The notes below the pieces were generated by a model, which saw nothing but the letters and a program-made list of their open reading frames with translations, was not told the DNA's origin and did no database searches. Shown here piece after piece: positions 2 through 59,378 of a stretch of 64,000 bases of DNA. A program made the translations under genes and the position numbers. How positions within the stretch are numbered: position 1 is the stretch's first letter; each line of letters begins with the position of its first letter. This DNA comes from Agreia pratensis (lineage in GTDB: Bacteria > Actinomycetota > Actinomycetes > Actinomycetales > Microbacteriaceae). The DNA is taken from the NCBI RefSeq assembly GCF_900177685.1, contig NZ_FXAY01000002.1, positions 620,001 through 684,000 of the forward strand, in the 5' to 3' direction.

Positions 2-2935
2 ATCTACTCCTCGCGCATCATCCCGAGCCGTGGTGCATGGCTCGAGTTCGAGATCGACAAGCGCGACCAGGTCGGCGTTCGCATCGACCGCAAGCGCAAG
101 CAGAGCGTCACCGTCTTCCTCAAGGCCCTCGGCCTCACAAGCGAAGAGATCCTCTCCGAGTTCAAGGGATACGCATCCATCGAGGCCACCCTCGAGAAGG
201 ACACGATCCTCACGAAAGAAGAGGCGCTGAAGGACATCTACCGCAAGCTGCGCCCGGGCGAGCAGGTCGCTGCCGAGGCTGCGCGTGCGCTGCTCGACAA
301 CTTCTACTTCAACTCGAAGCGCTACGACCTGGCGAAGGTCGGTCGGTACAAGATCAACCGCAAGCTCGGCATCGAGAGCGCGCTTAGCAACTCCGTGCTC
401 ACGGTCGAGGACATCATCGCCACGATCAAGTACCTGGTCGCTCTTCACGACAACCAGACCACGATCCCCGGCACCCGTGAGGGCAAGAAGGTCGACATCC
501 GTCTCGACGTCGATGACATCGACCACTTCGGAAACCGTCGTATCCGCGCCGTCGGCGAGCTCATCCAGAACCAGGTCCGCACGGGTCTGTCTCGTATGGA
601 GCGCGTCGTCCGCGAGCGTATGACCACTCAGGACATCGAGGCCATCACCCCGCAGACCCTGATCAACGTGCGCCCCGTCGTCGCCGCGATCAAGGAGTTC
701 TTCGGAACCAGCCAGCTGTCGCAGTTCATGGACCAGAACAACCCCCTCGCGGGTCTGACGCACAAGCGTCGCCTCTCCGCGCTGGGCCCGGGTGGTCTGA
801 GTCGTGAGCGTGCCGGTGTCGAGGTGCGAGACGTTCACCCGTCGCACTACGGCCGTATGTGCCCCATCGAGACCCCTGAAGGCCCGAACATCGGTCTGAT
901 CGGATCGCTCGCATCGTTCGCGCGCATCAACTCGTTCGGTTTCATCGAGACCCCGTACCGTCGCGTCGTCGACGGCGTGGTCACGGCGACCATCGACTAC
1001 CTCACCGCCAGCGAAGAAGACGAGTACATCGTCGCCCAGGCCAACGCGCCGCTCACCGGCGAGGCCCGCTTCGCCGAGTCGCGCGTTCTCGCCCGCCGCA
1101 AGGGTGGAGAGGTCGACCTGTTCCCGGCCGAGGACATCGGCTACATGGACGTCTCGCCGCGCCAGATGGTGTCGGTCGCGACCAGCCTCATCCCCTTCCT
1201 CGAGCACGACGATGCGAACCGCGCCCTCATGGGTGCCAACATGCAGCGCCAGGCTGTTCCGCTGCTGCGCAGCGAGAGCCCGCTCGTGGGTACCGGTATG
1301 GAGGGCTACGCGGCTATCGACGCCGGCGACGTGGTCACCACGCTCAAGGCCGGTGTCGTCTCCGAGGTCTCTGCAGACGTCGTCACCATTCAGCTCGACG
1401 AGGGCGGAACGCAGGACTACTACCTGCGCAAGTTCGACCGCTCGAACCAGGGCACCAGCTACAACCACCGTGTGATCGTCGCCGAGGGCGAGCGGGTCGA
1501 GGTCGGCCAGGTTCTGGCCGATGGTCCCGCCACCGAGAACGGCGAGCTCGCGCTCGGAAAGAACCTGCTCGTGGCATTCATGCCGTGGGAGGGCTACAAC
1601 TTCGAAGACGCGATGATCCTGAGCCAGAACCTGGTGAAAGACGACGTGCTCTCCTCGATCCACATCGAGGAGTACGAGGTCGACGCGCGCGACACCAAGC
1701 TGGGTAAAGAGGAGATCACCCGTGACCTCCCCAACGTCTCGCCTGAGCTGCTCGCAGACCTCGACGAGCGAGGCATCATCCGCATCGGTGCCGAGGTCCG
1801 CCCCGGCGACATCCTCGTCGGCAAGGTCACGCCCAAGGGCGAGACCGAGCTCAGTGCCGAGGAGCGCCTGCTGCGCGCCATCTTCAACGAGAAGAGCCGC
1901 GAGGTTCGCGACACCTCGCTGAAGGTTCCCCACGGTGAGCAGGGCACGATCATCGCCGTCAAGGAGTTCTCCGCCGAGAACGACGACGAGCTGGGCTCGG
2001 GCGTCAACCAGCGTGTTGTCGTCTACATCGCTCAGAAGCGCAAGATCACCGAGGGCGACAAGCTCGCAGGCCGTCACGGCAACAAGGGCGTCATCTCCAA
2101 GATCCTTCCGGTCGAAGACATGCCGTTCCTCGCCGACGGAACCCCCGTCGACATCGTGCTGAACCCGCTGGGAATCCCCGGTCGAATGAACTTCGGCCAG
2201 GTTCTCGAGACGCACCTCGGCTGGATCGCCAAGCAGGGCTGGGAGGTCGAAGGCAAGCCCAAGTGGGCTGCCGAGCTGCCCGAGCAGGCCCGCAAGGCCG
2301 CTCCGAACACGAAGGTCGCGACCCCCGTGTTCGACGGTGCGTTCGAGGAGGAGATCGCCGGTCTGCTCGATTCGACGACTCCGACCCGCGATGGCGACCG
2401 GCTCATCGGTTCCTCCGGAAAGGCCCGTCTCTTCGACGGCCGCTCCGGCGAGCCGTACCCCGAGCCCATCTCGGTCGGTTACATGTACATCCTGAAGCTG
2501 CACCACCTCGTCGACGACAAGATCCACGCGCGTTCGACGGGTCCGTACTCCATGATCACGCAGCAGCCGCTGGGTGGTAAGGCACAGTTCGGTGGACAGC
2601 GTTTCGGTGAGATGGAGGTCTGGGCTCTCGAGGCCTATGGAGCCGCGTACGCGCTCCAGGAACTCCTGACCATCAAGTCCGACGACATCCTCGGCCGCGT
2701 CAAGGTCTACGAGGCGATCGTCAAGGGCGAGAACATCCAGGAGCCCGGTATTCCCGAGAGCTTCAAGGTGCTCATCAAGGAGATGCAGTCGCTGTGTCTG
2801 AACGTCGAGGTCCTCTCGGCCGACGGAACAGCAGTGAGCCTGCGCGACACGGATGACGAGGTCTTCCGTGCAGCTGAAGAGCTCGGCATCAACATCTCCA
2901 CCCGGTTCGAGTCGTCGTCCATCGACGACATTTGA
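2..2935 (+). CDS. rpoB: RNA polymerase beta subunit (5' partial)
   Basis: Beta subunit of DNA-dependent RNA polymerase; with beta' it forms the active-site cleft and the rifampicin pocket. The window begins inside the gene: 977 codons are readable in frame from base 2 to the TGA. The rifampicin region lies around 710-800 ([10 protein letters not shown], then [10 protein letters not shown]); the classic E. coli resistance positions Asp516, His526 and Ser531 are wild type, while the Ser522 position is Ala. The conserved C-terminal block ([20 protein letters not shown], about 2572-2631) is intact. rpoC follows after 48 nt, the usual rpoBC arrangement. Assignment is certain; only the N-terminus is missing. 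Confidence 0.99.
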
Positions 2936-2983
2936 TCCGGCCTAGTTACTTAGCTGACGCAACCTTCAGGAGAAGAGAAAACA

Positions 2984-6862
<3,879 letters not shown>

Positions 6863-8822: not shown

Positions 8823-9643
8823 GCGCCGCCGCCTCGACCGTGGGCGCCAGCACCGTCGCGCTTCCCGACGGCGGCGGCCAGCTCGCGCTCTCGTGGGCGG
8901 CCCAGACGAACACGGGGCTGAAACGCTCGGGCAACCAGGACAGCTACCTTGCCGCGGCACCCGTGTTCGCGGTGGCCGACGGCATGGGAGGACATGCGGC
9001 CGGCGACGAGGCGAGCGCCGCGGTCGTCGCACGACTGGCCGAATACATCTCGGGTGACTTCGCGTCGACCGACGAGATCGCCCAGGCGCTCCGTCACGCG
9101 AGCGACGACATCGGAGAGATCGCCGGCAGCCACGATCGAGCCGGCTCAGGCACGACCGTCACCGGTATCGCTCTCACCATTCAGGGGCAGCGACCGTATT
9201 GGGCCGTCTTCAATATCGGCGACTCCCGGGTGTATTCGCTCCTCGACGGTGTTCTGACCCAGCTGACCGTCGACCACTCTGCCGTTCAGGCGATGGTCGA
9301 CGCGGGCAGCATCACCGCTGTCGAGGCGGAGTCGCACCCGAACCGGAACATCATCACGCGAGCTGTGGGCTTCGGCAAGAACCCTGTTCCCGATCTCTGG
9401 TTCATCCCCGTCGCGGAGGGCTCCAGGCTCTTGATCTGCTCCGACGGATTGACGAAAGAAGTCGACGCCGACCTCATCCGTCTCCTCCTGTCTGAGGCCA
9501 TCGACGCCGACGACGCAGCCGGTCTGCTGCTGGAGGCCGCGCTCGCGGCGGGCGGGCGTGACAATGTGACCACCGTCGTCGTCGAGGTCGTCAGAAGCGA
9601 CGAAGCAGCCGACGCCGACGCGACTCTTCCTCGCTTCGACTGA
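8819..9643 (+). CDS. PP2C-family Ser/Thr protein phosphatase
   Basis: A 274-residue PPM/PP2C metal-dependent phosphatase, expected to reverse phosphorylation by the neighbouring kinase. Visible metal-binding and structural motifs in order: NQDSYL (about residue 39), VADGMGGHAAGDEAS (about 53), GSGTTVTG (about 110), GDSRVY (about 134), ICSDGLT (about 207) and GRDNVT (about 247). Unlike PstP-type phosphatases it has no transmembrane tail and stops soon after the catalytic domain. The GTG start at 8819 overlaps the FHA1 stop as GTGA; GTG 8816 is also possible. The order FHA-PP2C-kinase is typical of actinobacterial phosphothreonine signalling loci. Confidence 0.93.
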   Translation: MSAAASTVGASTVALPDGGGQLALSWAAQTNTGLKRSGNQDSYLAAAPVFAVADGMGGHAAGDEASAAVVARLAEYISGDFASTDEIAQALRHASDDIGEIAGSHDRAGSGTTVTGIALTIQGQRPYWAVFNIGDSRVYSLLDGVLTQLTVDHSAVQAMVDAGSITAVEAESHPNRNIITRAVGFGKNPVPDLWFIPVAEGSRLLICSDGLTKEVDADLIRLLLSEAIDADDAAGLLLEAALAAGGRDNVTTVVVEVVRSDEAADADATLPRFD

Positions 9644-9792
9644 GTCGTGTCACCCTGATTGGGGGCACTCCGTCAGGCGTTCGGAGTACACGATGCCGGT
9701 GATGGTCTATGTACAGTGGAGGGACGGCTTTCGGGGGACAGTCAAGAGGTTCTCGCCCCGCCCCACGTACCCGTCTCGAAAGAGGAACGCCC

Positions 9793-11220
9793 ATGGCTCG
9801 CAGGCTGCCGTCACAGCCGCCGGTTCTCGCGGGCTACACGCATCTGCGCGCGCTGGGCAAAGGTGGTTTCGCCGACGTCTTCCTCTATGAGCAGGCACTG
9901 CCCCGAGCCGACGTCGCCGTCAAAGTCCTTCTACCGGGCGTGGCCAGCAACAGTGTGCGCGCGATGTTCCTCTCCGAAGCCAACCTGATGTCGCAACTCG
10001 CGACGCATCCATCGGTCGTCACGGTGCACGCCGCGAGCATCGCTCCCGACGGCCGTCCCTACCTCGTGATGGAATACTGTCCTTCATCTTTCGGCACGAG
10101 GTACAAGACCGAACGCATCCCCCTGGCCGAGGTCCTGACCGCTGGCGTCAAGATCGGCAGTGCGCTCGAGAGCGCCCACAGGCTCGGCTTTCTGCATCGC
10201 GACATCAAGCCGTCGAACATCCTCATCACGAAGTACAACCACCCCGTGCTCGCAGACTTCGGCATCGCGGCCACCGTTGCAGAGGCCGATCGCGATGAGG
10301 CCGAGGGCATGAGTGTGCCCTGGTCGGCGCCCGAGGTGCTGCAGTCCGAGACACGGGGAACGGTGCGCAGCGAGGTCTGGTCGCTGGCCGCCACCCTCTA
10401 TTCCATGCTCGCCGGTCGCAGTCCCTTCGAGTATCCGGGTAAGACCAACACCCGCGACGACCTTCAGCGCCGCATCGTCGGCCGCGATCGTGTGCCACCC
10501 ACGGGCCGGCCGGATGTTCCGGCCGAGCTCGAGACGCTCCTCGCGTCGTGCATGTCGAAGAACCCCGCAGCCCGGCCCGCGAGCGTGCTCGAGGTCGTTC
10601 GCGGTCTGCAGCTGATCGAGTCGACCCTCTCGCTGCCGCAGACATCGGCCGACATCTCCGATGAGGCGTTCCCCAGCCAGACACAGCGAGCGGCGGCAGC
10701 AGCACCGCTCACGAGAGCGGCGCAGGGCGGCATCTCGGTGCGCGGTCGCGGCGAAGCCCGCGCGCGGCACCGCGGGCGCCAGGGCGACACGTCGCGTGAC
10801 TCGACCGATTCCAGCGTCACCGTCATCAGACAGGCGACAACCGCCAGGGCGAAGCCATTGCGCAGGCCCGGAGTGATCGTCGCGGTCGTCGGCAGTGCGG
10901 TGGTGCTCGTGGCTGCGATCGTCGCCGCGGTCGTGCTCGTCTTGGGCGCTCTCAACACGTCGATCCCAGTCGTCAGTGACATCCGCGCCAGCGCCGGAGC
11001 CGATTCCATCGTCTTCTCCTGGCGCGATCCGGGGCTCGCAGACGGTGACCTCTACGTGATTCGCTCTGCAGACGGCTCGGCGTCCACTCAGTCGGCCAAC
11101 GAATTTACGGTCCAGGCAGATCCTCTCGTTCCCGACTGCATCACCGTCCGCGTCTTGCGAGACGGCCGACTCGGCGAACCGTCGGCCCAGAAGTGCGCTT
11201 CGGCTGGAGACGGCGGATGA
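9793..11220 (+). CDS. Membrane Ser/Thr protein kinase with outside Fn3-like domain
   Basis: A 475-residue Hanks-type (PknB-like) receptor kinase. The cytoplasmic kinase domain (about residues 13-275) has the Gly loop GKGGFADVF, the ATP lysine in VAVK (Lys44), HRDIKPSN (catalytic Asp137), DFG (Asp155) and SAPE. A basic juxtamembrane stretch leads to one transmembrane helix (about 360-384) and an outside domain of about 90 residues that looks Fn3-like (IVFSWRDPG, then two Cys near the end) rather than PASTA repeats. Start ATG 9793 follows GAAAGAGGAA; a spacer of 149 nt before it may hold its own promoter. The next gene overlaps by ATGA, so kinase and giant surface protein are translationally coupled. 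Confidence 0.92.
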   Translation: MARRLPSQPPVLAGYTHLRALGKGGFADVFLYEQALPRADVAVKVLLPGVASNSVRAMFLSEANLMSQLATHPSVVTVHAASIAPDGRPYLVMEYCPSSFGTRYKTERIPLAEVLTAGVKIGSALESAHRLGFLHRDIKPSNILITKYNHPVLADFGIAATVAEADRDEAEGMSVPWSAPEVLQSETRGTVRSEVWSLAATLYSMLAGRSPFEYPGKTNTRDDLQRRIVGRDRVPPTGRPDVPAELETLLASCMSKNPAARPASVLEVVRGLQLIESTLSLPQTSADISDEAFPSQTQRAAAAAPLTRAAQGGISVRGRGEARARHRGRQGDTSRDSTDSSVTVIRQATTARAKPLRRPGVIVAVVGSAVVLVAAIVAAVVLVLGALNTSIPVVSDIRASAGADSIVFSWRDPGLADGDLYVIRSADGSASTQSANEFTVQADPLVPDCITVRVLRDGRLGEPSAQKCASAGDGG

Positions 11221-52865: not shown

Positions 52866-53312
52866 TCAGTCGTCGCTCTCGAGAATCAGCTTGAGGTTGT
52901 CGAACATCTGCTCGATCGTGTTCTGGTTAATGCGGTCGAGCAGAGCGGCGTTCACGACCTTCTGCAGAACGGTCGGCTCGATCTCGTAGAGGATCTCGGT
53001 GGTGATGCGCGTCGTGCCGTCGCCGAGATCGTCGAACGTGTAGTCCCAGGTGGCGTTCACATCACCGGTGAGGCGCAGCGTGACCTTCTTGTCGACCTCG
53101 AACGCGATGCCCTCGGCTTTGCCGCGAAGGTCTGCACCCGCCATGTTGAAGCGCCAGTCGAACGTCTGGTCTACCCCGGCCTTCTCAGGCGTGATATTCG
53201 TGTTCTCGTTGAGGTTCGGAATGAACGCCGGGCCGTTCTCGGCGCTCGCGGTGTACTCGAACACCTCGGAGATGGGCTTTCGGATGACGATGAGTGCTTT
53301 GGCGCTGGCCAT
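52866..53312 (-). CDS. SRPBCC-fold protein (polyketide cyclase/START-like)
   Basis: A 148-residue protein with the helix-grip fold: an N-terminal strand plus IRKPISEVFEYTASAENGPAF, a central beta sheet (VTLRLTGDVNATWDYTFDDLG) and a long C-terminal helix. Such proteins bind lipids or other hydrophobic ligands; in Mycobacterium a relative (Rv0910) is described as a toxin. An orphan Rv0909-like gene lies 22 kb away, too far to claim a pair. AAGGAAGG site upstream; cotranscribed with the membrane gene before it and next to the lipid-like cluster. Confidence 0.7.
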   Translation of the reverse strand: MASAKALIVIRKPISEVFEYTASAENGPAFIPNLNENTNITPEKAGVDQTFDWRFNMAGADLRGKAEGIAFEVDKKVTLRLTGDVNATWDYTFDDLGDGTTRITTEILYEIEPTVLQKVVNAALLDRINQNTIEQMFDNLKLILESDD

Positions 53313-53336: not shown

Positions 53337-53825
53337 TCAGCTTCGACCGAGGGAGTAGTTCTGAACAGTCTTGCGTAAGACGTTGCGGAACAGGGCGATC
53401 TTCTTGAGACCGGTGTCGTTCGAGGCGCTCACGCGAACGGTGACCGTCTGGATGCGCGGCGCAAGCGTGCGTACGATCAAGGTCGAGCGCTCGCCCATCA
53501 CGAACGTGCGGTCGTCGACGATCGTGCGCTTCACGCGCACCATCGTGGATGCTTTGACCACGGCAGTCAGAACCTGCTCGGTCGCGAGGCCGAGCACCAC
53601 CCAGGGGCGCCAGACGCGCGCGACGACGAACTGCGCGATAAGCAGGAGCAGGACCGGCAGCATCCATACGCTGATAAACGCCACGGCTACAATGGCCAAG
53701 GCGACGAGCGCATAGGCCTCTGCCCCGCGGAGAAGAACGGGTCGGCGTTTTGCCAGGGGGAGAATCACGAGGTGCGCCAGGATCGCCAGAACGGCGCCGA
53801 ACGCACATACGGAGACGATGATCAT
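53337..53825 (-). CDS. Small membrane protein, unknown function
   Basis: Not recognised. About 162 residues with hydrophobic segments near 5-22 and 37-70, then a basic, beta-rich cytoplasmic half (VRVKRTIVDDRTFVMGERS). The start is uncertain: GTG 53831 and ATG 53825 are in frame. ATG 53825 is preferred because TAGTGT (minus strand, 53838-53833) ends 7 bases before its A, the geometry of a leaderless transcript. It runs into the SRPBCC gene after 24 nt and is divergent from the UbiA-like gene. Confidence 0.6.
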   Translation of the reverse strand: MIIVSVCAFGAVLAILAHLVILPLAKRRPVLLRGAEAYALVALAIVAVAFISVWMLPVLLLLIAQFVVARVWRPWVVLGLATEQVLTAVVKASTMVRVKRTIVDDRTFVMGERSTLIVRTLAPRIQTVTVRVSASNDTGLKKIALFRNVLRKTVQNYSLGRS

Positions 53826-53837
53826 CGGCACAACACT

Positions 53838-54674
53838 ATGAGGGGCGCGCGGATTTATCTACGCGAGCGGTTTCCCCTCGCACTCGTCTCTCTGATGTCG
53901 GCCTCCTTCGCTGCGGCGTCGCTCGGGCTCCTCGCCCCTGCTGGCTTGACCGCGGCCGACGTGTGGGCGGCCGCGATCCTGCTCTTCGTGATGTACCTCG
54001 CCTTGCTGCTGCGCTACCGGGTCACCGACGAGTGGAAGGACTTCGCACACGACAGCGCCGTCTATCCCGACCGCCCGGTTCAGCGCGGCGTGATCTCGCC
54101 TCGCACCCTCCTCGTCATCGGCATCGGGGCTTTCGCGGTCGAGCTTCTCTGCGGGCTGCTGCTCGGCGGCCTCGTCGGGTTTCTGCTCTACCTTCCGGTT
54201 CTCGCCTATTCGGCCCTCACAGTATTCGAGTTCTTCGCGGGCTCGTGGCTCGACCGACACTTCACCCTGTCGTTTCTTCTGCACGAGGCGATCTACCTGC
54301 CGCTCTTTGCCTGGGTTGCATTCGTGCTGGGCGCGAGCTGGAGCTGGCGGACCGTGGCCGGCATCCTGGCGTGCACCCTGCTGTTGGTCTCGGTCGAGCT
54401 GGCCCGCAAGTTCAGTCCGCGCTTCGACACCGCCGGCGCGGTGGTGCTCGACACGTATTCGGCGGTCTGGGGCAGGGGCCGTACGCTGGGGGCGATGGTC
54501 ATGCTGGTGGTTCTGAGCGGGGGGCTTGCGATGACGGCGGGTGCAGGCCTCGCCTCGCTCGCGATCGCCGCACTCTCGGCGATCGTCATAGTCGTGCGGC
54601 CGGCATCCGACCGCTGGGTCACCGCGGTCGTCGCCATCCATCTCCCGCTCCAGGCGGCGGCGATGCTCTCGTGA
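53838..54674 (+). CDS. UbiA-family prenyltransferase-like membrane protein
   Basis: A 278-residue integral membrane protein with 7-9 helices. The first Asp-rich motif reads TDEWKDFAHDSAVYPDRPVQRG (split: TDEWKDFAHD, then YPDRPVQRG), a variant of the UbiA NDxxDxxxD and RP..G signature; similar DExKDxxxD versions occur in a UbiA subfamily I recall from other bacteria. A second site may be LLHEAIYLPLF. UbiA enzymes join isoprenoid diphosphates to aromatic, sugar or glycerol-phosphate acceptors. First gene of the lipid-like cluster; overlaps the next gene by GTGA. Confidence 0.7.
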   Translation: MRGARIYLRERFPLALVSLMSASFAAASLGLLAPAGLTAADVWAAAILLFVMYLALLLRYRVTDEWKDFAHDSAVYPDRPVQRGVISPRTLLVIGIGAFAVELLCGLLLGGLVGFLLYLPVLAYSALTVFEFFAGSWLDRHFTLSFLLHEAIYLPLFAWVAFVLGASWSWRTVAGILACTLLLVSVELARKFSPRFDTAGAVVLDTYSAVWGRGRTLGAMVMLVVLSGGLAMTAGAGLASLAIAALSAIVIVVRPASDRWVTAVVAIHLPLQAAAMLS

Positions 54675-57085
54675 GCGCCCTGACCACGGTGTCTGACTCC
54701 TCGATGGGCAGCAAAGCCTTCGGCCTGGTCGAGCTCGATCGTCTGTACCCCGGACTCGTCCCCTCGTTCATCGTGCTTCCCGTCGAGGACCTCGTCGAGA
54801 ACTGGCACGACCTCCGTGCCGCGGCGCACACCCTCGTCGCCGAGTACTGCGCCGGAACCGTCGACGACGCCGCGTACGCCGAACGATCGGCGCGACTCGT
54901 CGCATCCCTCTCGATCGCCGGTGACGTCGTCGAAGCCGCCCTCGCGTCGTGCGGTGGCTGGGGCTCGGTCAGCGTGCGCACCTCGGCGCTCGCGGAGGAC
55001 GGGGTCGAGCACTCGTTCGCGGGGCAGTACGAGACCTCGCTCGATGTGCCGACCGAGTCGCGGCCCGTTCGCGATGCGATAGGCGCATCGGTCGCCAGCC
55101 TGTTCTCGGCTCGGGTGGCGGCCTACGCTCGGGCGCGGCGAATGTCATCGCTCGAGATCGGCGGATCGGTCGTCGTGCAGCAGATGTTCGTCGGCACCAC
55201 GAGCGGAGTCCTCTTCAGCGAGAACGGCCGTGGTGAGCTCACGCTCGCGTGGAGCCGGTCGGCCCGCAACACCACGGTCGAGGGTGAGAACGCCCACGAA
55301 CTGCGCGCGTCGAAGGTGTCCGACTGGCCGAGCGGTCTGCCCGCGCCTGCGAGGCTTCTCGACATCGCGGTCGATTCCGAGGCGCGTCTTCGTCGTCCGG
55401 TCGACATCGAGTGGGCCGCGCGCGGCTCGCAGCTCGCCCTGTTGCAGGTGCGGCCGCAGACCACGGTCGCTCTCGACTACGAGCTGGCGTGGGACTGCAC
55501 GAACATCGCCGAGAACTACCCAGGCATCACGCTGCCGCTCACCTACTCGTTCATCCGCGGCCTCTACTCGCGCGTGTACCCCGCTTTCTTTCGCAAGCTC
55601 GGTGTGAACCAGAAGGTTCTGGATGCGAAACAGCAGGTCTTCCGCAATACCCTCGGCTACCTCGGCGGGCACGTCTACTACCAGATCGATAACTGGTACG
55701 AGATGGTGCGCCTGATTCCCGGTCCGAGCAGCAACCAGGCGTTCTTCTCCGCCATGCTGCAGCCGCAGCGCACACCCGGCGATGCCCCTCGGCGTCGGCT
55801 GGGGCTGCGAGGCGCGCTCACGATGGCGCCGCTCGTGGGCCGGCTCGGCGTGCTGCTTCTCCGGTCGAATTCGATGTCGAAGACCTTCAGCCGCACCTTC
55901 CAGAAGCGGTTGAAGAGATTCGAGGCGGTCGACTGGAACACGCTGCACGCCGACGCGATTCTCTCGACTCTCGAGACGATGCGGGCAGAGCTGCTCACCC
56001 TGTGGGCGACGCCCGTCTTCAACGACCTGCGCGTCATGATCTTTCACGGGCTGCTGAAGACCTACAGTTTCAGTGCCGAACAGCACGCCGACTACCTCGG
56101 CTATCTGCACGGCCTCAGCGATCGGGCATCGATCGCGCCTCTGACGGCTCTCGGAGTTCTCGGCAACCGACTGCGTGAGCGCCACGGCGAGGCGGCGACG
56201 GCCGACGGCATCCTGTCATCGCCCGACTGGATGGCGACGCGTGTGCTGGTCGACGAGTATCTCGCGCGGTTCGGTGGGCGCGCGCCCGACGAGCTGCAGC
56301 TCGAGAACCCACGCCTCGCCGACGACTACGCATCGCTTCTCGCGCTGGCGCTCGGCACCGACCCCGAGGGGCGGCCGCCCGTGGATGCGTCGGCCCGATC
56401 GATCACGGGCCGTTTCGGCACCCGGTTCATCGGCCGCAATACCCGTCAAGCCATCGACTGGAGGGAACGCTTCCGGTTCAACAGGGCTCAGGTCTACGGA
56501 CTCGCGCGGGCCGCGTACCTGGCTCTCGGGCAGCGACTCGTCGATGCTGAGTTGCTAGAGACAGCGAACGACGTGTTCTGGCTCACCGAACAGGAACTCG
56601 ACGAGGCGGTGTTCGGCCACGCCTGGAGTTCGGACCCCCGCTCGACGGTCGCCCGACGCCGGGCGGAATTCGGCACGTTCGAACAGCGCTCGCTTGCCCG
56701 CCGAGTGGTGGGCTCGGGCCTCATCGCGCCCGCAGCGCTGCGTGACGACGAACAGCGATCCGCCTCGGGCATGGCAGCGGGCATGGGTGTGTCTCCCGGA
56801 GTGCTCACCGCCGAGGCGATCGTCGTGCACGCGTTCGATCCGACCATCGACGTGCGCGGCAAGATCCTGGTCACGAGCCACATCGATCCCGGCTGGACGC
56901 TGCTCTTCGTGCAGGCCGCCGGCGTCGTGACGGAACGGGGCAACGCCCTGTCGCATGTGGCGATCATCGCCCGTGAGCTGGCTATGCCCGCCGTCGTGGC
57001 CGCGATGGGCGCCGTCGATACGCTGAGCACGGGTCAGGTCATCACGATCAACGGAACCACGGGAGACATCGATGCCGCGCTCTAG
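54671..57085 (+). CDS. PEP-synthase-like phosphotransferase without PEP barrel
   Basis: An 804-residue protein. The N-terminal part is the ATP-grasp domain of pyruvate phosphate dikinase/PEP synthase: GSKAFGLVELDRLYPG, SVSVRTSALAEDG with SFAGQYET, then DIEWAARGSQLALLQVRPQT. A central region of about 450 residues is unfamiliar. The C-terminus is the swivel phosphohistidine domain, TERGNALSHVAIIARELAMP with His762. No PEP/pyruvate-binding TIM barrel follows, an architecture known from rifampin phosphotransferase. It probably transfers phosphate from ATP to an unknown, perhaps lipid, acceptor. Coupled to the UbiA-like gene and overlapping the next gene by 14 nt. Confidence 0.82.
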   Translation: MSALTTVSDSSMGSKAFGLVELDRLYPGLVPSFIVLPVEDLVENWHDLRAAAHTLVAEYCAGTVDDAAYAERSARLVASLSIAGDVVEAALASCGGWGSVSVRTSALAEDGVEHSFAGQYETSLDVPTESRPVRDAIGASVASLFSARVAAYARARRMSSLEIGGSVVVQQMFVGTTSGVLFSENGRGELTLAWSRSARNTTVEGENAHELRASKVSDWPSGLPAPARLLDIAVDSEARLRRPVDIEWAARGSQLALLQVRPQTTVALDYELAWDCTNIAENYPGITLPLTYSFIRGLYSRVYPAFFRKLGVNQKVLDAKQQVFRNTLGYLGGHVYYQIDNWYEMVRLIPGPSSNQAFFSAMLQPQRTPGDAPRRRLGLRGALTMAPLVGRLGVLLLRSNSMSKTFSRTFQKRLKRFEAVDWNTLHADAILSTLETMRAELLTLWATPVFNDLRVMIFHGLLKTYSFSAEQHADYLGYLHGLSDRASIAPLTALGVLGNRLRERHGEAATADGILSSPDWMATRVLVDEYLARFGGRAPDELQLENPRLADDYASLLALALGTDPEGRPPVDASARSITGRFGTRFIGRNTRQAIDWRERFRFNRAQVYGLARAAYLALGQRLVDAELLETANDVFWLTEQELDEAVFGHAWSSDPRSTVARRRAEFGTFEQRSLARRVVGSGLIAPAALRDDEQRSASGMAAGMGVSPGVLTAEAIVVHAFDPTIDVRGKILVTSHIDPGWTLLFVQAAGVVTERGNALSHVAIIARELAMPAVVAAMGAVDTLSTGQVITINGTTGDIDAAL

Positions 57086-57686
57086 CTATTGGCTGAAAGC
57101 CATCGGTCCGGCGGGCTCGGTCTCTCTCGCCAGCCTCCTGCTCGCGTGGATCGCGATCGGTCTCGCCGTCTCGGGCTCGCTGCGCGCGAGCGTGCTGTGC
57201 GCCCTGGGGGCTTTTCTGCTCGACATGCTCGATGGCTTCGTCGCGCGACGCCTCGGCGTCTCGAGCGAGTTCGGGCGGCAGCTCGACAGCTTCATCGACG
57301 TCATCAACTACTCGCTCTACGCCGCGGTGCTTGTCGGCTTCCACATCATTCCGGGCGTGGCCGGCTGGGCTCTCGGCTTCGTGATCGTGGCAACCGGAAT
57401 CCTGCGACTCATCCGCTTCAACATCGAGGGGTTCACCGACGACGAGCCCATCAAGTACTACCGGGGCATCGTGGTGTGCCATCTGTCGCTCTGTGCCATC
57501 GTCTTCCTGATTCTCACAGAGCTCTTTCCCGACACCGGCTGGATTCCGTGGCTGGCGGCAGCGGCCCTGATCGTGCTCTCGTTCTTGCAGCTCTCGTTGA
57601 TCCGTATCCGCAAGACCGGGCGCCAGGCGTGGTGGGCCGCCCTCGTCGTGCCGCTGGCCGCCGGCGCGCTTCTGTGGTTGACGTAG
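57072..57686 (+). CDS. CDP-alcohol phosphatidyltransferase (phosphatidylserine-synthase type)
   Basis: A 204-residue membrane enzyme with about 6 helices. The complete family motif D-x2-D-G-x2-A-R-x8-G-x3-D-x3-D is present in DMLDGFVARRLGVSSEFG followed by RQLDSFID (about residues 51-76). The following LRLIRFNIEG resembles phosphatidylserine and archaetidylserine synthases. It exchanges CMP in a CDP-lipid for an alcohol head group. Start ATG 57072 follows GGGAGAC and overlaps the previous gene; it is plausibly the head-group step of the cluster. Confidence 0.88.
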   Translation: MPRSSYWLKAIGPAGSVSLASLLLAWIAIGLAVSGSLRASVLCALGAFLLDMLDGFVARRLGVSSEFGRQLDSFIDVINYSLYAAVLVGFHIIPGVAGWALGFVIVATGILRLIRFNIEGFTDDEPIKYYRGIVVCHLSLCAIVFLILTELFPDTGWIPWLAAAALIVLSFLQLSLIRIRKTGRQAWWAALVVPLAAGALLWLT

Positions 57687-58180
57687 GCACGGTGTTCGCG
57701 GCGGAGCTTCATGAGGGGCTCGCCGCGGAGATCCGATCCATCGCACGCGCACACCCCGAGGTGTCGGAACGGAGCGCCAGGCAGCTTCGTCGCGCGTTGC
57801 GCGCCGACCGTCTGGCTGTCGCCACAGACGACGGGCGCGTGGTCGGCTGGTTCCTTTCCGAGTCGGGAATGGGCGGAGCGCACGAGCTCGGTTACCTCTT
57901 CGTCGAGAGCTCGTTCCGCACGGGCGAGGTCTTCGACCGGATGCTCGCGCAGCTGCTCGAGATCGAGCGGCGGGCAGTCGCGGTGACGTTCAGGCCAGGC
58001 CTGGCCGATTGGCTCGAGCGGTCGTACGGTTTCGAACGGGCGAGTCTCGGCAGTGTGATCGCTCTGTCGCGAGGAACTTTTCTGATGAGACGTCTGAGCC
58101 CGGTTCGGCTGCGAGCCGTGGCACGGCACACGAGCGAGGCCACCCCTATCTATCTCACCTGGACGAGGCAAGGACTGTGA
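57674..58180 (+). CDS. GNAT-like acetyltransferase-fold protein
   Basis: About 168 residues. LAVATDDGRVVGWFLSE, then LGYLFVESSFR and WLERSYGFERASLGSV correspond to the beta-strand and CoA-binding regions of GNAT proteins, but the pantetheine-binding Q/R-x2-G-x-G/A motif is weak (FRTGEVFD). It may bind or acylate an amine, or be a divergent member. Start is uncertain: GTG 57674 overlaps the previous stop; GTG 57692 is an alternative. It overlaps the next gene by GTGA, so it is an integral member of the cluster. Confidence 0.6.
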   Translation: MVDVGTVFAAELHEGLAAEIRSIARAHPEVSERSARQLRRALRADRLAVATDDGRVVGWFLSESGMGGAHELGYLFVESSFRTGEVFDRMLAQLLEIERRAVAVTFRPGLADWLERSYGFERASLGSVIALSRGTFLMRRLSPVRLRAVARHTSEATPIYLTWTRQGL

Positions 58181-58788
58181 CGGCCGAGCTGTCTTCCGCG
58201 CTGATCTTCGGCGCGGCCACCGTCGCCCTCGCGGGATCTTTCGTGGTGCTCGAGCGCCTCGTGCGGGTCAAGAACGTACCCACCGAGATCACGCGCCGCG
58301 TCGCACACGTTCTCGCCTGCCTCTTCGCTCTCGTCGTGCACGCGGTTCTGCCGTTCTGGCTCTTCATCGTGTGCGCAGTCGCATTCGCGGGCCTCATGTG
58401 GCTCTCACGCCATTTCCACGTCTTCACGTCGATTCACAAGGTGCGCCGCCGTTCGCTCGGCGACGTCTACCTTCCGCTGGGTATCGGCATCGCCGCCCTC
58501 ATCGGGCAGAACGACGCCGCTGTCTTCATCGCCGCTGTGCTCATTCTGGGTCTCGCCGACGTCGCAGCGGGATTGGTGGGCGACTACCTGCGCTCCGCCC
58601 GCAAGACGTGGTGGGGATCAGGCGCATTCTTCGGGGTGAGCGTCATCGTGCTCGCGCTCTGCGGGTTCGGCCTCGTTCCCGTGATTGTCGTCGCGCTGCT
58701 GGCCACGGCGACCGAACGCTACTCGCCGCTCGGCACAGACAACGTCAGTATCCCGTTCGTCGCCGCGGGCCTCCTCGCCGTTCTCTGA
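58177..58788 (+). CDS. Dolichol/phytol-kinase-like membrane protein
   Basis: A 203-residue integral membrane protein with about 6 helices that resembles the dolichol kinase/phytol kinase/phosphatidate cytidylyltransferase superfamily: EITRRVAHVLACLF, RRSLGDVYLPLGIGIAAL, GLADVAAGLVGD and, near the C-terminus, TATERYSPLGTDNVSIPF, the T-x-E-x(5-7)-D-N-x2-I-P element of that family. Such enzymes use CTP to phosphorylate isoprenoid alcohols. In this cluster it could supply a phosphorylated lipid for cytidylylation. GTG 58177 overlaps the preceding stop. Confidence 0.72.
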   Translation: MTAELSSALIFGAATVALAGSFVVLERLVRVKNVPTEITRRVAHVLACLFALVVHAVLPFWLFIVCAVAFAGLMWLSRHFHVFTSIHKVRRRSLGDVYLPLGIGIAALIGQNDAAVFIAAVLILGLADVAAGLVGDYLRSARKTWWGSGAFFGVSVIVLALCGFGLVPVIVVALLATATERYSPLGTDNVSIPFVAAGLLAVL

Positions 58789-58814
58789 CGCCGGGGCGTC
58801 GCACCGATGCGTGG

Positions 58815-59378
58815 CTAGTGAGACTTCAGTCGCAGCCGGTGCATCATGACGTCTGTGCCCGCGTGCACCGCGACACCGACTCCAGCGGTGGCAGCGACGA
58901 GCACGGGAGCGGCGCCCAGCGCGAGCAGGAGCACCGACACCGCGATGATTCCATCGGCCAGATCGGCGAGACGTTGCAGCGCACGCCAGCGCGAGGTCGT
59001 CTCGGTGCTCGAGTCGATGCCGACGCGCCTCTTGACGAAGCTGTTCACGAGTTCGCCGAGCACATAGACCGCGCCGATCGCGAACCCGACCGCCACGGAG
59101 CGAGGTCCGCGCAGAATCGGCGCGACCCACTGGTGCAGATCGGGGTGGCCTAGGATTCCGGCGACGATCGACGCCCCGCCGACGTAGATGACGACGCCCA
59201 GCCAGGTCTTCGTACGGCCGAAGACGGGGCGGCCATCACCCCAGGTCGAGCCGGCATCGAGCGGAATCGCGAGCCGGCGCATCCAGCCCTGCTTCAGTAC
59301 GACGATGAGGGCGATGCCGGGCACGAGAACGGTGGCGAGCAACGAGGCGAGCTGCGAGGCGAAGACGAGGGCGGACAT
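58815..59378 (-). CDS. CDP-archaeol-synthase-like (CarS/DUF46) membrane protein
   Basis: A 187-residue membrane protein with about 4-5 helices. The segment IPLDAGSTWGDGRPVFGRTK followed by TWLGVV matches the hallmark of CTP:archaeol cytidylyltransferase (P-[LI]-D-x-G, then R-x-[LIV]-F-G-x2-K-T-W-x-G), and ELVNSFVKRRVGI matches the later G-E-x2-N-S-x2-K-R element. It would activate a phosphorylated lipid with CTP. It converges on the dolichol-kinase-like gene and is divergent from infA. The ATG lies directly behind AAGGG, so the start may be slightly off. Confidence 0.72.
   Translation of the reverse strand: MSALVFASQLASLLATVLVPGIALIVVLKQGWMRRLAIPLDAGSTWGDGRPVFGRTKTWLGVVIYVGGASIVAGILGHPDLHQWVAPILRGPRSVAVGFAIGAVYVLGELVNSFVKRRVGIDSSTETTSRWRALQRLADLADGIIAVSVLLLALGAAPVLVAATAGVGVAVHAGTDVMMHRLRLKSH

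Follow-up and report, generated by a model that had tools for sequence, protein, structure and literature searches.

Gene organization of the cluster

The window examined here is a 64,000-nucleotide stretch of the Agreia pratensis genome (contig NZ_FXAY01000002.1, positions 620,001 to 684,000), and coordinates given without a locus number refer to it. Between mtlD and infA of this 3.58-Mb genome sits a set of six genes. Five genes on the + strand encode a UbiA-fold membrane transferase of a subfamily of its own (53838..54674), a dikinase resembling rifampin phosphotransferase (RPH) that has an ATP-grasp part, a middle part and a phosphohistidine swivel part (54671..57085), a cytidine diphosphate (CDP)-alcohol phosphatidyltransferase similar to phosphatidylserine (PS) synthases (57072..57686), a short protein with a predicted GNAT fold (57674..58180), and a polytopic protein similar to CTP-dependent kinases, called DolK-like below (58177..58788). 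With the start codons used here, these genes overlap their neighbors by 4-14 bases. The sixth gene, on the - strand and convergent with the five-gene operon, encodes a CarS-like CTP:lipid-phosphate cytidylyltransferase (58815..59378). A preliminary description of this DNA had reported an overlapping + strand operon facing a CarS-like gene, and all of the genes it named are present. The interpretation that we prefer, held at slightly less than an even chance, is that the cluster encodes an accessory membrane-lipid pathway in which a fixed core is combined with exchangeable head-group parts.

The UbiA-like protein and the dikinase

The PF01040 (UbiA) score of the window protein was 23.9 bits, below the gathering cut-off of 34.2, and 17 of 23 aligned relatives matched this family at E<=0.01. 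The AlphaFold model of the protein has a predicted local distance difference test score (pLDDT) of 95.3. All four Foldseek matches at E<=0.001 were UbiA proteins (best 4od4, 1.1e-4). In the VIA comparison the best matches were the UbiA structures 4od4 and 4od5 (Z 16.8, root-mean-square deviation 3.4, 248 aligned) and the first eight rows were UbiA-type, with a small margin, as soluble prenyl synthases start at Z 14.4. The predicted structure supports the UbiA fold; the earlier label of UbiA-like thus holds for the fold and not for the family profile. Two subfamily motifs, D-x2-KD-x3-D and E/D-x2-RK ... TY, are present in 23/23 aligned cluster UbiAs, in which R61, D64, K67, D68, D72, R190, K191, T206 and Y207 are invariant. 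By a simple pattern search, the host's four other clear UbiA genes have N-D-x2-D-x3-D in two cases and neither pattern in the other two. The cluster UbiAs formed a single clade with a support of 0.978 in a tree of 30 sequences, which was limited to cluster members and seven others.

When the UbiA profile was searched against solved structures, the top match was the digeranylgeranylglyceryl phosphate (DGGGP) synthase 6m31 (E 1.7e-4, best stretch 0.0043). Motif 1 of this enzyme (N62, D66, D70) aligns with D64, D68 and D72, with Asp replacing Asn. Motif 3 (D180, D183, D187), which according to PMC9385802 matters for binding and catalysis in archaeal DGGGP synthase, is changed in 23/23 aligned sequences as far as a weak alignment can tell: the position of D180 is taken by the invariant K191, D183 lies opposite a gap and D187 meets a column that is not invariant.

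The dikinase carries two Pfam domains only, PPDK_N (PF01326, 86.1 bits, cut-off 27) and PEP-utilizers (PF00391, 73.5 bits, cut-off 23.1), and the phosphoenolpyruvate (PEP)/pyruvate-binding barrel domain was not found with Pfam. H762 in the swivel part is invariant in 19/19 aligned dikinases. The score for TIGR01418 (PEP synthase) was 124.8 bits and fell short of the cut-off of 739.75. The NCBIfam models for RPH (NF041857, 177.3 bits against 999), PigC (150 against 1300) and RedH (137 against 1350) also matched below their cut-offs. The closest solved relatives are 5fbs and 5hv1-3, which are titled phosphoenolpyruvate synthase in the file and which we take to be rifampin phosphotransferases. 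The name PEP synthase was set aside on account of the lacking barrel, the missed NCBIfam cut-offs and these nearest structures. The preliminary description had called the protein PEP-synthase-like, which the lack of a PEP/pyruvate domain does not bear out.

Putative head-group proteins and the GNAT-fold protein

The window transferase matched PF01066 (CDP-OH_P_transf) with 51.6 bits against a cut-off of 22, and the D-x2-DG-x2-AR-x8-G-x3-D-x3-D motif is invariant in 8/8 aligned CDP-alcohol transferases, in agreement with the complete motif noted earlier. Because both solved relatives of this protein at E<=0.001 are PS synthases, serine is most likely the head group in the window, as judged from these sequence matches. 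The CarS-like protein scored above the cut-off for PF01864 (34.9 bits against 22), and the CarS profile found the CDP-archaeol synthase structure 5guf with an E of 8.5e-11; the earlier CarS-like label therefore stands up to Pfam.

The DolK-like protein of the window has no supporting Pfam match, and no solved relatives were found for it. Among its aligned relatives, 0/15 matched CTP_transf_1 (PF01148) at E<=0.1, whereas two further relatives from the genome scan scored 24.9 bits (L088) and 18.4 bits (L091) against a cut-off of 24. A weak profile match was found to the catalytic loop of CdsA. The conserved motifs are AD-x2-AG, KT-x2-GS and G-x-DN, which are characteristic of CTP-dependent kinases that act on dolichol, phytol or diacylglycerol. 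The dolichol-kinase-like label given earlier may be kept as a weak, putative assignment, which the L088 relative favors and the Pfam results for the window protein and the 15 aligned relatives do not. The DolK-like proteins of L055, L060 and L045 have an extra C-terminal part of ~220 residues without a Pfam family, and the L060 protein had one match in plasmid records, a hypothetical protein.

No Pfam match was obtained for the window GNAT protein. Its model (pLDDT 89.4) gave GNAT acetyltransferases as the top Foldseek matches (best E 4.7e-9), so that the earlier GNAT-like assignment is supported by the predicted fold but not by Pfam.

Distribution and probable loss in actinobacteria

The DolK-like gene was found in 3/248 genomes of the order and 8/398 genomes of the family, the host genome being counted in both. 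All seven other family genomes with this gene carry the six genes in the order and orientation of the window. Searching named genomes with the dikinase profile gave 13 actinobacterial loci, and the set was present in all of them. Together, 15 distinct actinobacterial loci (window included, no double counting) share the order and orientation of the set, which is more than chance. Conserved synteny is thus found, but its occurrence is patchy. Some of the loci are incomplete: UbiA is truncated by the contig end in L031 (18 bits) and holds N in L036, and the CarS genes of L030 and L036 continue past a contig end. Identity to the window proteins goes down to 26-45%, and to 21% for the GNAT of L037. 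Over 8 loci, the six families have correlated protein distances (r of 0.94-0.99), which is not proof as the genomes are related. Of 396 genomes sampled across the phylum, only the host showed the dikinase at E<=1e-90, a count of at least 1/396 because two candidates were scored per genome. The order's two remaining matches of the DolK-like protein come from distant actinobacteria, where its gene converges on a different UbiA-like gene (L008/L024, L009/L025). This may be a further kinase/prenyltransferase pair; a dikinase was not seen at either place, L024 being a 4.4-kb contig.

Within the genus, the DolK-like gene is missing from four of eight genomes. In three of these, none of the six genes was found at the site between mtlD or map and infA, the only place searched. 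The fourth retains a carS remnant between mtlD and infA (codons 2-49, 71% identity, E 3.7e-11, L136:12689-12844, - strand), which is likely a scar of cluster loss; the cluster was therefore probably lost from this genome. The survival of the remnant in a sister genome argues for an older presence rather than a recent insertion. A recent insertion of odd composition was rejected, as the G+C content of the cluster is 0.63-0.68 compared with 0.61-0.67 in the rest of the 44-64 kb region.

Distant relatives and exchangeable neighbors

Distant loci (n=22) were chosen by dikinase profile or peptides alone, and their dikinases have 27-33% identity. The record titles name Bacilli, Desemzia, Lachnospiraceae, Ruminococcaceae, other Clostridiales, Bacillota, Phycisphaeraceae, Patescibacteria, Obscuribacterales, a betaproteobacterium, a woesearchaeote and two unclassified bacteria; several of these groups are represented by one metagenome-assembled genome each, in which contamination is possible. 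With combined profiles, a UbiA of the subfamily was found near the dikinase in 22/22 distant loci, and with the actinobacterial profile alone in 16/22. The other neighbors were c2, a ~355 aa partner protein of the UbiA-dikinase pair (19 loci), CarS (9), the CDP-transferase (9), an acyl-CoA-ligase-like protein (9, two of them scoring only 32 and 41 bits), PS decarboxylase (8), DgkA (6), BtaA (4) and the DolK-like protein (3). Pfam checks on a single representative each of PS decarboxylase, DgkA, DUF3419/BtaA and the ligase put all four above cut-off. The nine loci with CarS contain DgkA in six cases and a second dikinase in its place in three, one of which (L039) starts at a contig end. This swap hints at an ability of such dikinases to phosphorylate lipid alcohols.

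In 14/22 distant loci the pair has known head-group genes nearby (CarS, PS-synthase-like, PS decarboxylase or BtaA), and their types are exchanged between lineages. The Obscuribacterales version has a BtaA (PF11899, 224 bits), and the Desemzia version combines PS decarboxylase with a protein similar to archaetidylserine synthase (79.4 bits, cut-off 240). In L048 (6532-8976) and L096 (3984-5997), PEP mutase and a decarboxylase-like thiamine pyrophosphate enzyme stand beside the pair, the L048 mutase being fused to a cytidylyltransferase domain; a phosphonolipid head group is possible there. The enzyme types that change around the pair are the PS type, BtaA and the phosphonate type. In the Cyanobacteriota group, 54/146 genomes matched the dikinase profile at 1e-40, many merely as members of the general family. 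Twenty of this group's better loci were examined, and they have UbiA in 17 cases (one locus without it is cut at the contig start and the other two are the weakest matches), c2 in 13, BtaA in 11, the ligase-like protein in 8, the DolK-like protein in 4, the CDP-transferase in 2, PS decarboxylase in 2 and CarS in 1. No CarS match was found in L094, whose cluster contains a CTP_transf_1 gene (144 bits, cut-off 24).

PlsY is present in 24/38 genomes, and in none of the actinobacteria tested nor in the C. glutamicum control; where PlsY is also present, the pathway is an additional one. The woesearchaeote record (L056) holds dikinase, c2, UbiA, BtaA-like and diacylglycerol-kinase-like genes, and its 1.3-Mb genome gave no match to PlsY or geranylgeranylglyceryl phosphate (GGGP) synthase. 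In the Phycisphaera locus L045, a Sir2-family gene (8989-9837) lies between UbiA and the dikinase, and a methylmalonyl-CoA mutase gene (1562-4159) lies upstream.

Proposed pathway

What could such a set of enzymes make? Kinases, cytidylyltransferases and head-group enzymes that are exchanged around a constant pair are what would be expected if this pair takes part in making a lipid alcohol for other enzymes to decorate, and we consider that UbiA and the RPH-like dikinase probably help to build such an alcohol. In the core, the UbiA-type enzyme would join a long chain, most likely prenyl, to a small acceptor, with the dikinase providing a phosphorylated substrate for this step; in the window, the GNAT protein would add or tailor an acyl group. 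The core would yield a lipid alcohol that can be compared with diacylglycerol. BtaA acts on diacylglycerol, and for this reason the lipid alcohol should resemble it. The head-group part of the window is better supported than the core. Here, the CTP-kinase-like protein would phosphorylate the lipid alcohol or a prenol precursor, CarS would convert the phosphorylated lipid to a CDP-lipid, and the CDP-alcohol transferase would attach serine, giving a PS-like lipid with an unusual backbone. The cluster had been described beforehand as a lipid-assembly unit, and the UbiA-type fold, CDP activation and head-group transfer support this, whereas the prenyl or polyprenol origin of the lipid is something we infer. 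What the analysis itself shows is the gene order, its conservation, the UbiA and GNAT folds, the transferase motif and the swapping of head-group genes among lineages; every substrate and product in the scheme is one that we infer.

Several observations weigh against this interpretation. As motif 3 is changed, the substrate may differ from those of known UbiA enzymes, and the case for a prenyl chain is made by the UbiA fold and by neighboring 3-hydroxy-3-methylglutaryl-coenzyme A (HMG-CoA) reductase genes. Among NCBIfam models, one that carries the name PEP synthase scored highest with the dikinase (400 bits, cut-off 883). The window transferase stays below the cut-offs of TIGR00473 (pssA; 66.6 bits against 107) and NF038087 (archaetidylserine synthase; 59.8 against 240), and the CarS-like protein below that of NF003114 (CDP-archaeol synthase; 47.4 against 148). 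PS decarboxylase was not found in 12/12 actinobacterial genomes searched, and serine is therefore without backing from the next step. The BtaA-type loci L045, L055, L060, L085, L087, L088 and L091 keep the DolK-like gene with no CDP-transferase near, so the protein may act on a prenol. A search of the surrounding 8 kb gave none of CarS, the CDP-transferase, PS decarboxylase and BtaA in 8/22 distant loci, the L058 contig being cut beside UbiA, and the c-family profiles were built from the very loci in which they were counted. One of two c2 members scanned scored 18.3 bits against a GNAT family (cut-off 124), a profile comparison of c2 with the window GNAT gave a probability of 6 and an E of 0.0063, too weak for one family, and the one match of c2 among solved structures was a designed protein (E 0.57). 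Because this likeness is weak and kinship with the window GNAT is not established, the acyltransferase is the least certain part of the core.

Alternative explanations

The BtaA-type loci also bear on a different account, in which the DolK-like protein and the dikinase would salvage prenol or phytol by making prenyl phosphates, with which UbiA would load a lipid or carrier. These loci keep the DolK-like gene without a CDP step. HMG-CoA reductase, an isoprenoid enzyme, is encoded near the dikinase in 7/64 loci (L041:7570-8907 and L045:6673-8019 by Pfam; L084, in two pieces, L089, L092, L093 and L100 by tblastn); the gene is next to UbiA in L041, L045, L092 and L093, and in L084 and L089 it is no more than 7 kb away. 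Some record titles mention rumen, bloom or fresh water, a link to habitat that comes from the titles alone. However, HMG-CoA reductase suggests isoprenoid synthesis and not salvage. Also counted against salvage are the failure to find HMG-CoA synthase in any of the seven reductase genomes, in which mevalonate diphosphate decarboxylase was found in 4/7 (three without), and the lack of a DolK-like gene nearby in 19/22 distant loci. We regard salvage as unlikely, and the accessory membrane-lipid pathway remains our preferred reading.

An archaeal-type isoprenoid ether lipid pathway, in which UbiA would be a DGGGP synthase followed by CarS and archaetidylserine synthase, draws on the profile match to 6m31, on the CDP-archaeol synthase found with the CarS profile and on the Desemzia version. 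It appears distinctly improbable. GGGP synthase (PF01884) was above cut-off in 0/29 UbiA-dikinase genomes, many of them drafts and none searched for glycerol-1-phosphate dehydrogenase; one partial match below cut-off was seen in G635, and 7/14 controls matched, five above cut-off. In the VIA comparison, DGGGP synthase (Z 14.4) resembles the UbiA model less than other UbiA proteins do (16.8). We know of no role for a dikinase or a GNAT protein in the archaeal lipid pathway, which was counted against this explanation. Two of the three Asp residues of motif 3, as defined in PMC9385802, are not kept. The strict archaeal pathway was set aside for the missing GGGP synthase and the changed motif 3, and the term archaeal-type, used in the preliminary description, is not supported in its strict sense, given in addition that the CarS, PssA and archaetidylserine synthase equivalog cut-offs were all missed.

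A secondary metabolite or lipid carrier rather than a bulk membrane lipid would suit the patchy spread (8/398 family genomes) and the loss in the sister genome, both of which fit an accessory product, as do the 8/22 distant loci without head-group genes; RPH, PigC and RedH models are also among the dikinase matches, all below cut-off. On the other hand, no glycosyltransferase or transporter family was above cut-off among the eight window proteins scanned, and the head-group genes found elsewhere are those of membrane lipids, so that a product of this kind also seems rather improbable. Ordinary PS synthesis with unrelated neighbors, suggested by the PS-synthase-like transferase, is very unlikely, as a UbiA of one subfamily neighbors the dikinase in 22/22 distant loci despite varying head-group genes and 24/38 genomes also have PlsY, which belongs to the normal route.

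Comparison with known systems

The set resembles the archaeal phospholipid pathway in its UbiA fold, CarS family and serine-type CDP-alcohol transferase, and several bacterial relatives add a decarboxylase; unlike that pathway, its genomes gave no GGGP synthase above cut-off, its UbiA has a changed motif 3, and it adds a dikinase, a GNAT protein and a CTP-kinase-like protein. Cloacimonetes, too, are bacteria with a UbiA-type lipid enzyme, and PMC7852524 describes archaeal-like GGGP and DGGGP synthase genes with CarS not detected, whereas the window set has CarS and no GGGP synthase was found with the set. The dikinase shares with RPH and the PigC/RedH ligases the combination of PPDK_N and PEP-utilizers without a PEP barrel, but it is far below their NCBIfam cut-offs and tied to UbiA. 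With PssA and PS decarboxylase the set has in common the CDP-alcohol motif and the solved relatives of its transferase; it differs in the missed pssA cut-off and in the 12/12 actinobacterial genomes without PS decarboxylase. The betaine lipid synthase BtaA (DUF3419) is matched by PF11899 in the Obscuribacterales version and is absent from the genes of the window set. No description of this gene set was found among the matches listed in the open-licence text of PubMed Central.

A broader proposal, which we think somewhat unlikely, is a modular pathway that spans six or more phyla of bacteria and perhaps one lineage of archaea and would make prenyl-containing, perhaps hybrid prenyl-ether/acyl, membrane lipids without GGGP synthase. 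It would use a new UbiA subfamily and an RPH-like lipid dikinase, and its head groups would be of the serine/ethanolamine, betaine or phosphonate type. Should the core product be a prenyl lipid, the 'lipid divide' would have a bacterial crossing that is free of GGGP synthase, and the UbiA-dikinase pair would be a marker for finding such a route. With a chain of another kind, it would still be new for widely different bacteria to share a membrane-lipid pathway whose head groups are exchanged. Because one genus holds genomes with and without the cluster, direct testing is feasible.

Accessory genes

Two further genes on the - strand lie ahead of the UbiA gene. One encodes an SRPBCC or polyketide-cyclase-like protein, a possible lipid binder (52866..53312; PF10604, 31.7 bits, cut-off 27.4), and the other a small predicted membrane protein without a Pfam family above cut-off (53337..53831). 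Neither gave a tblastn match at the four cluster-free sites of the genus, a result for these sites only. The SRPBCC gene also lies next to the six-gene set in loci L017-L020, where relatives of the small membrane protein occur as well.

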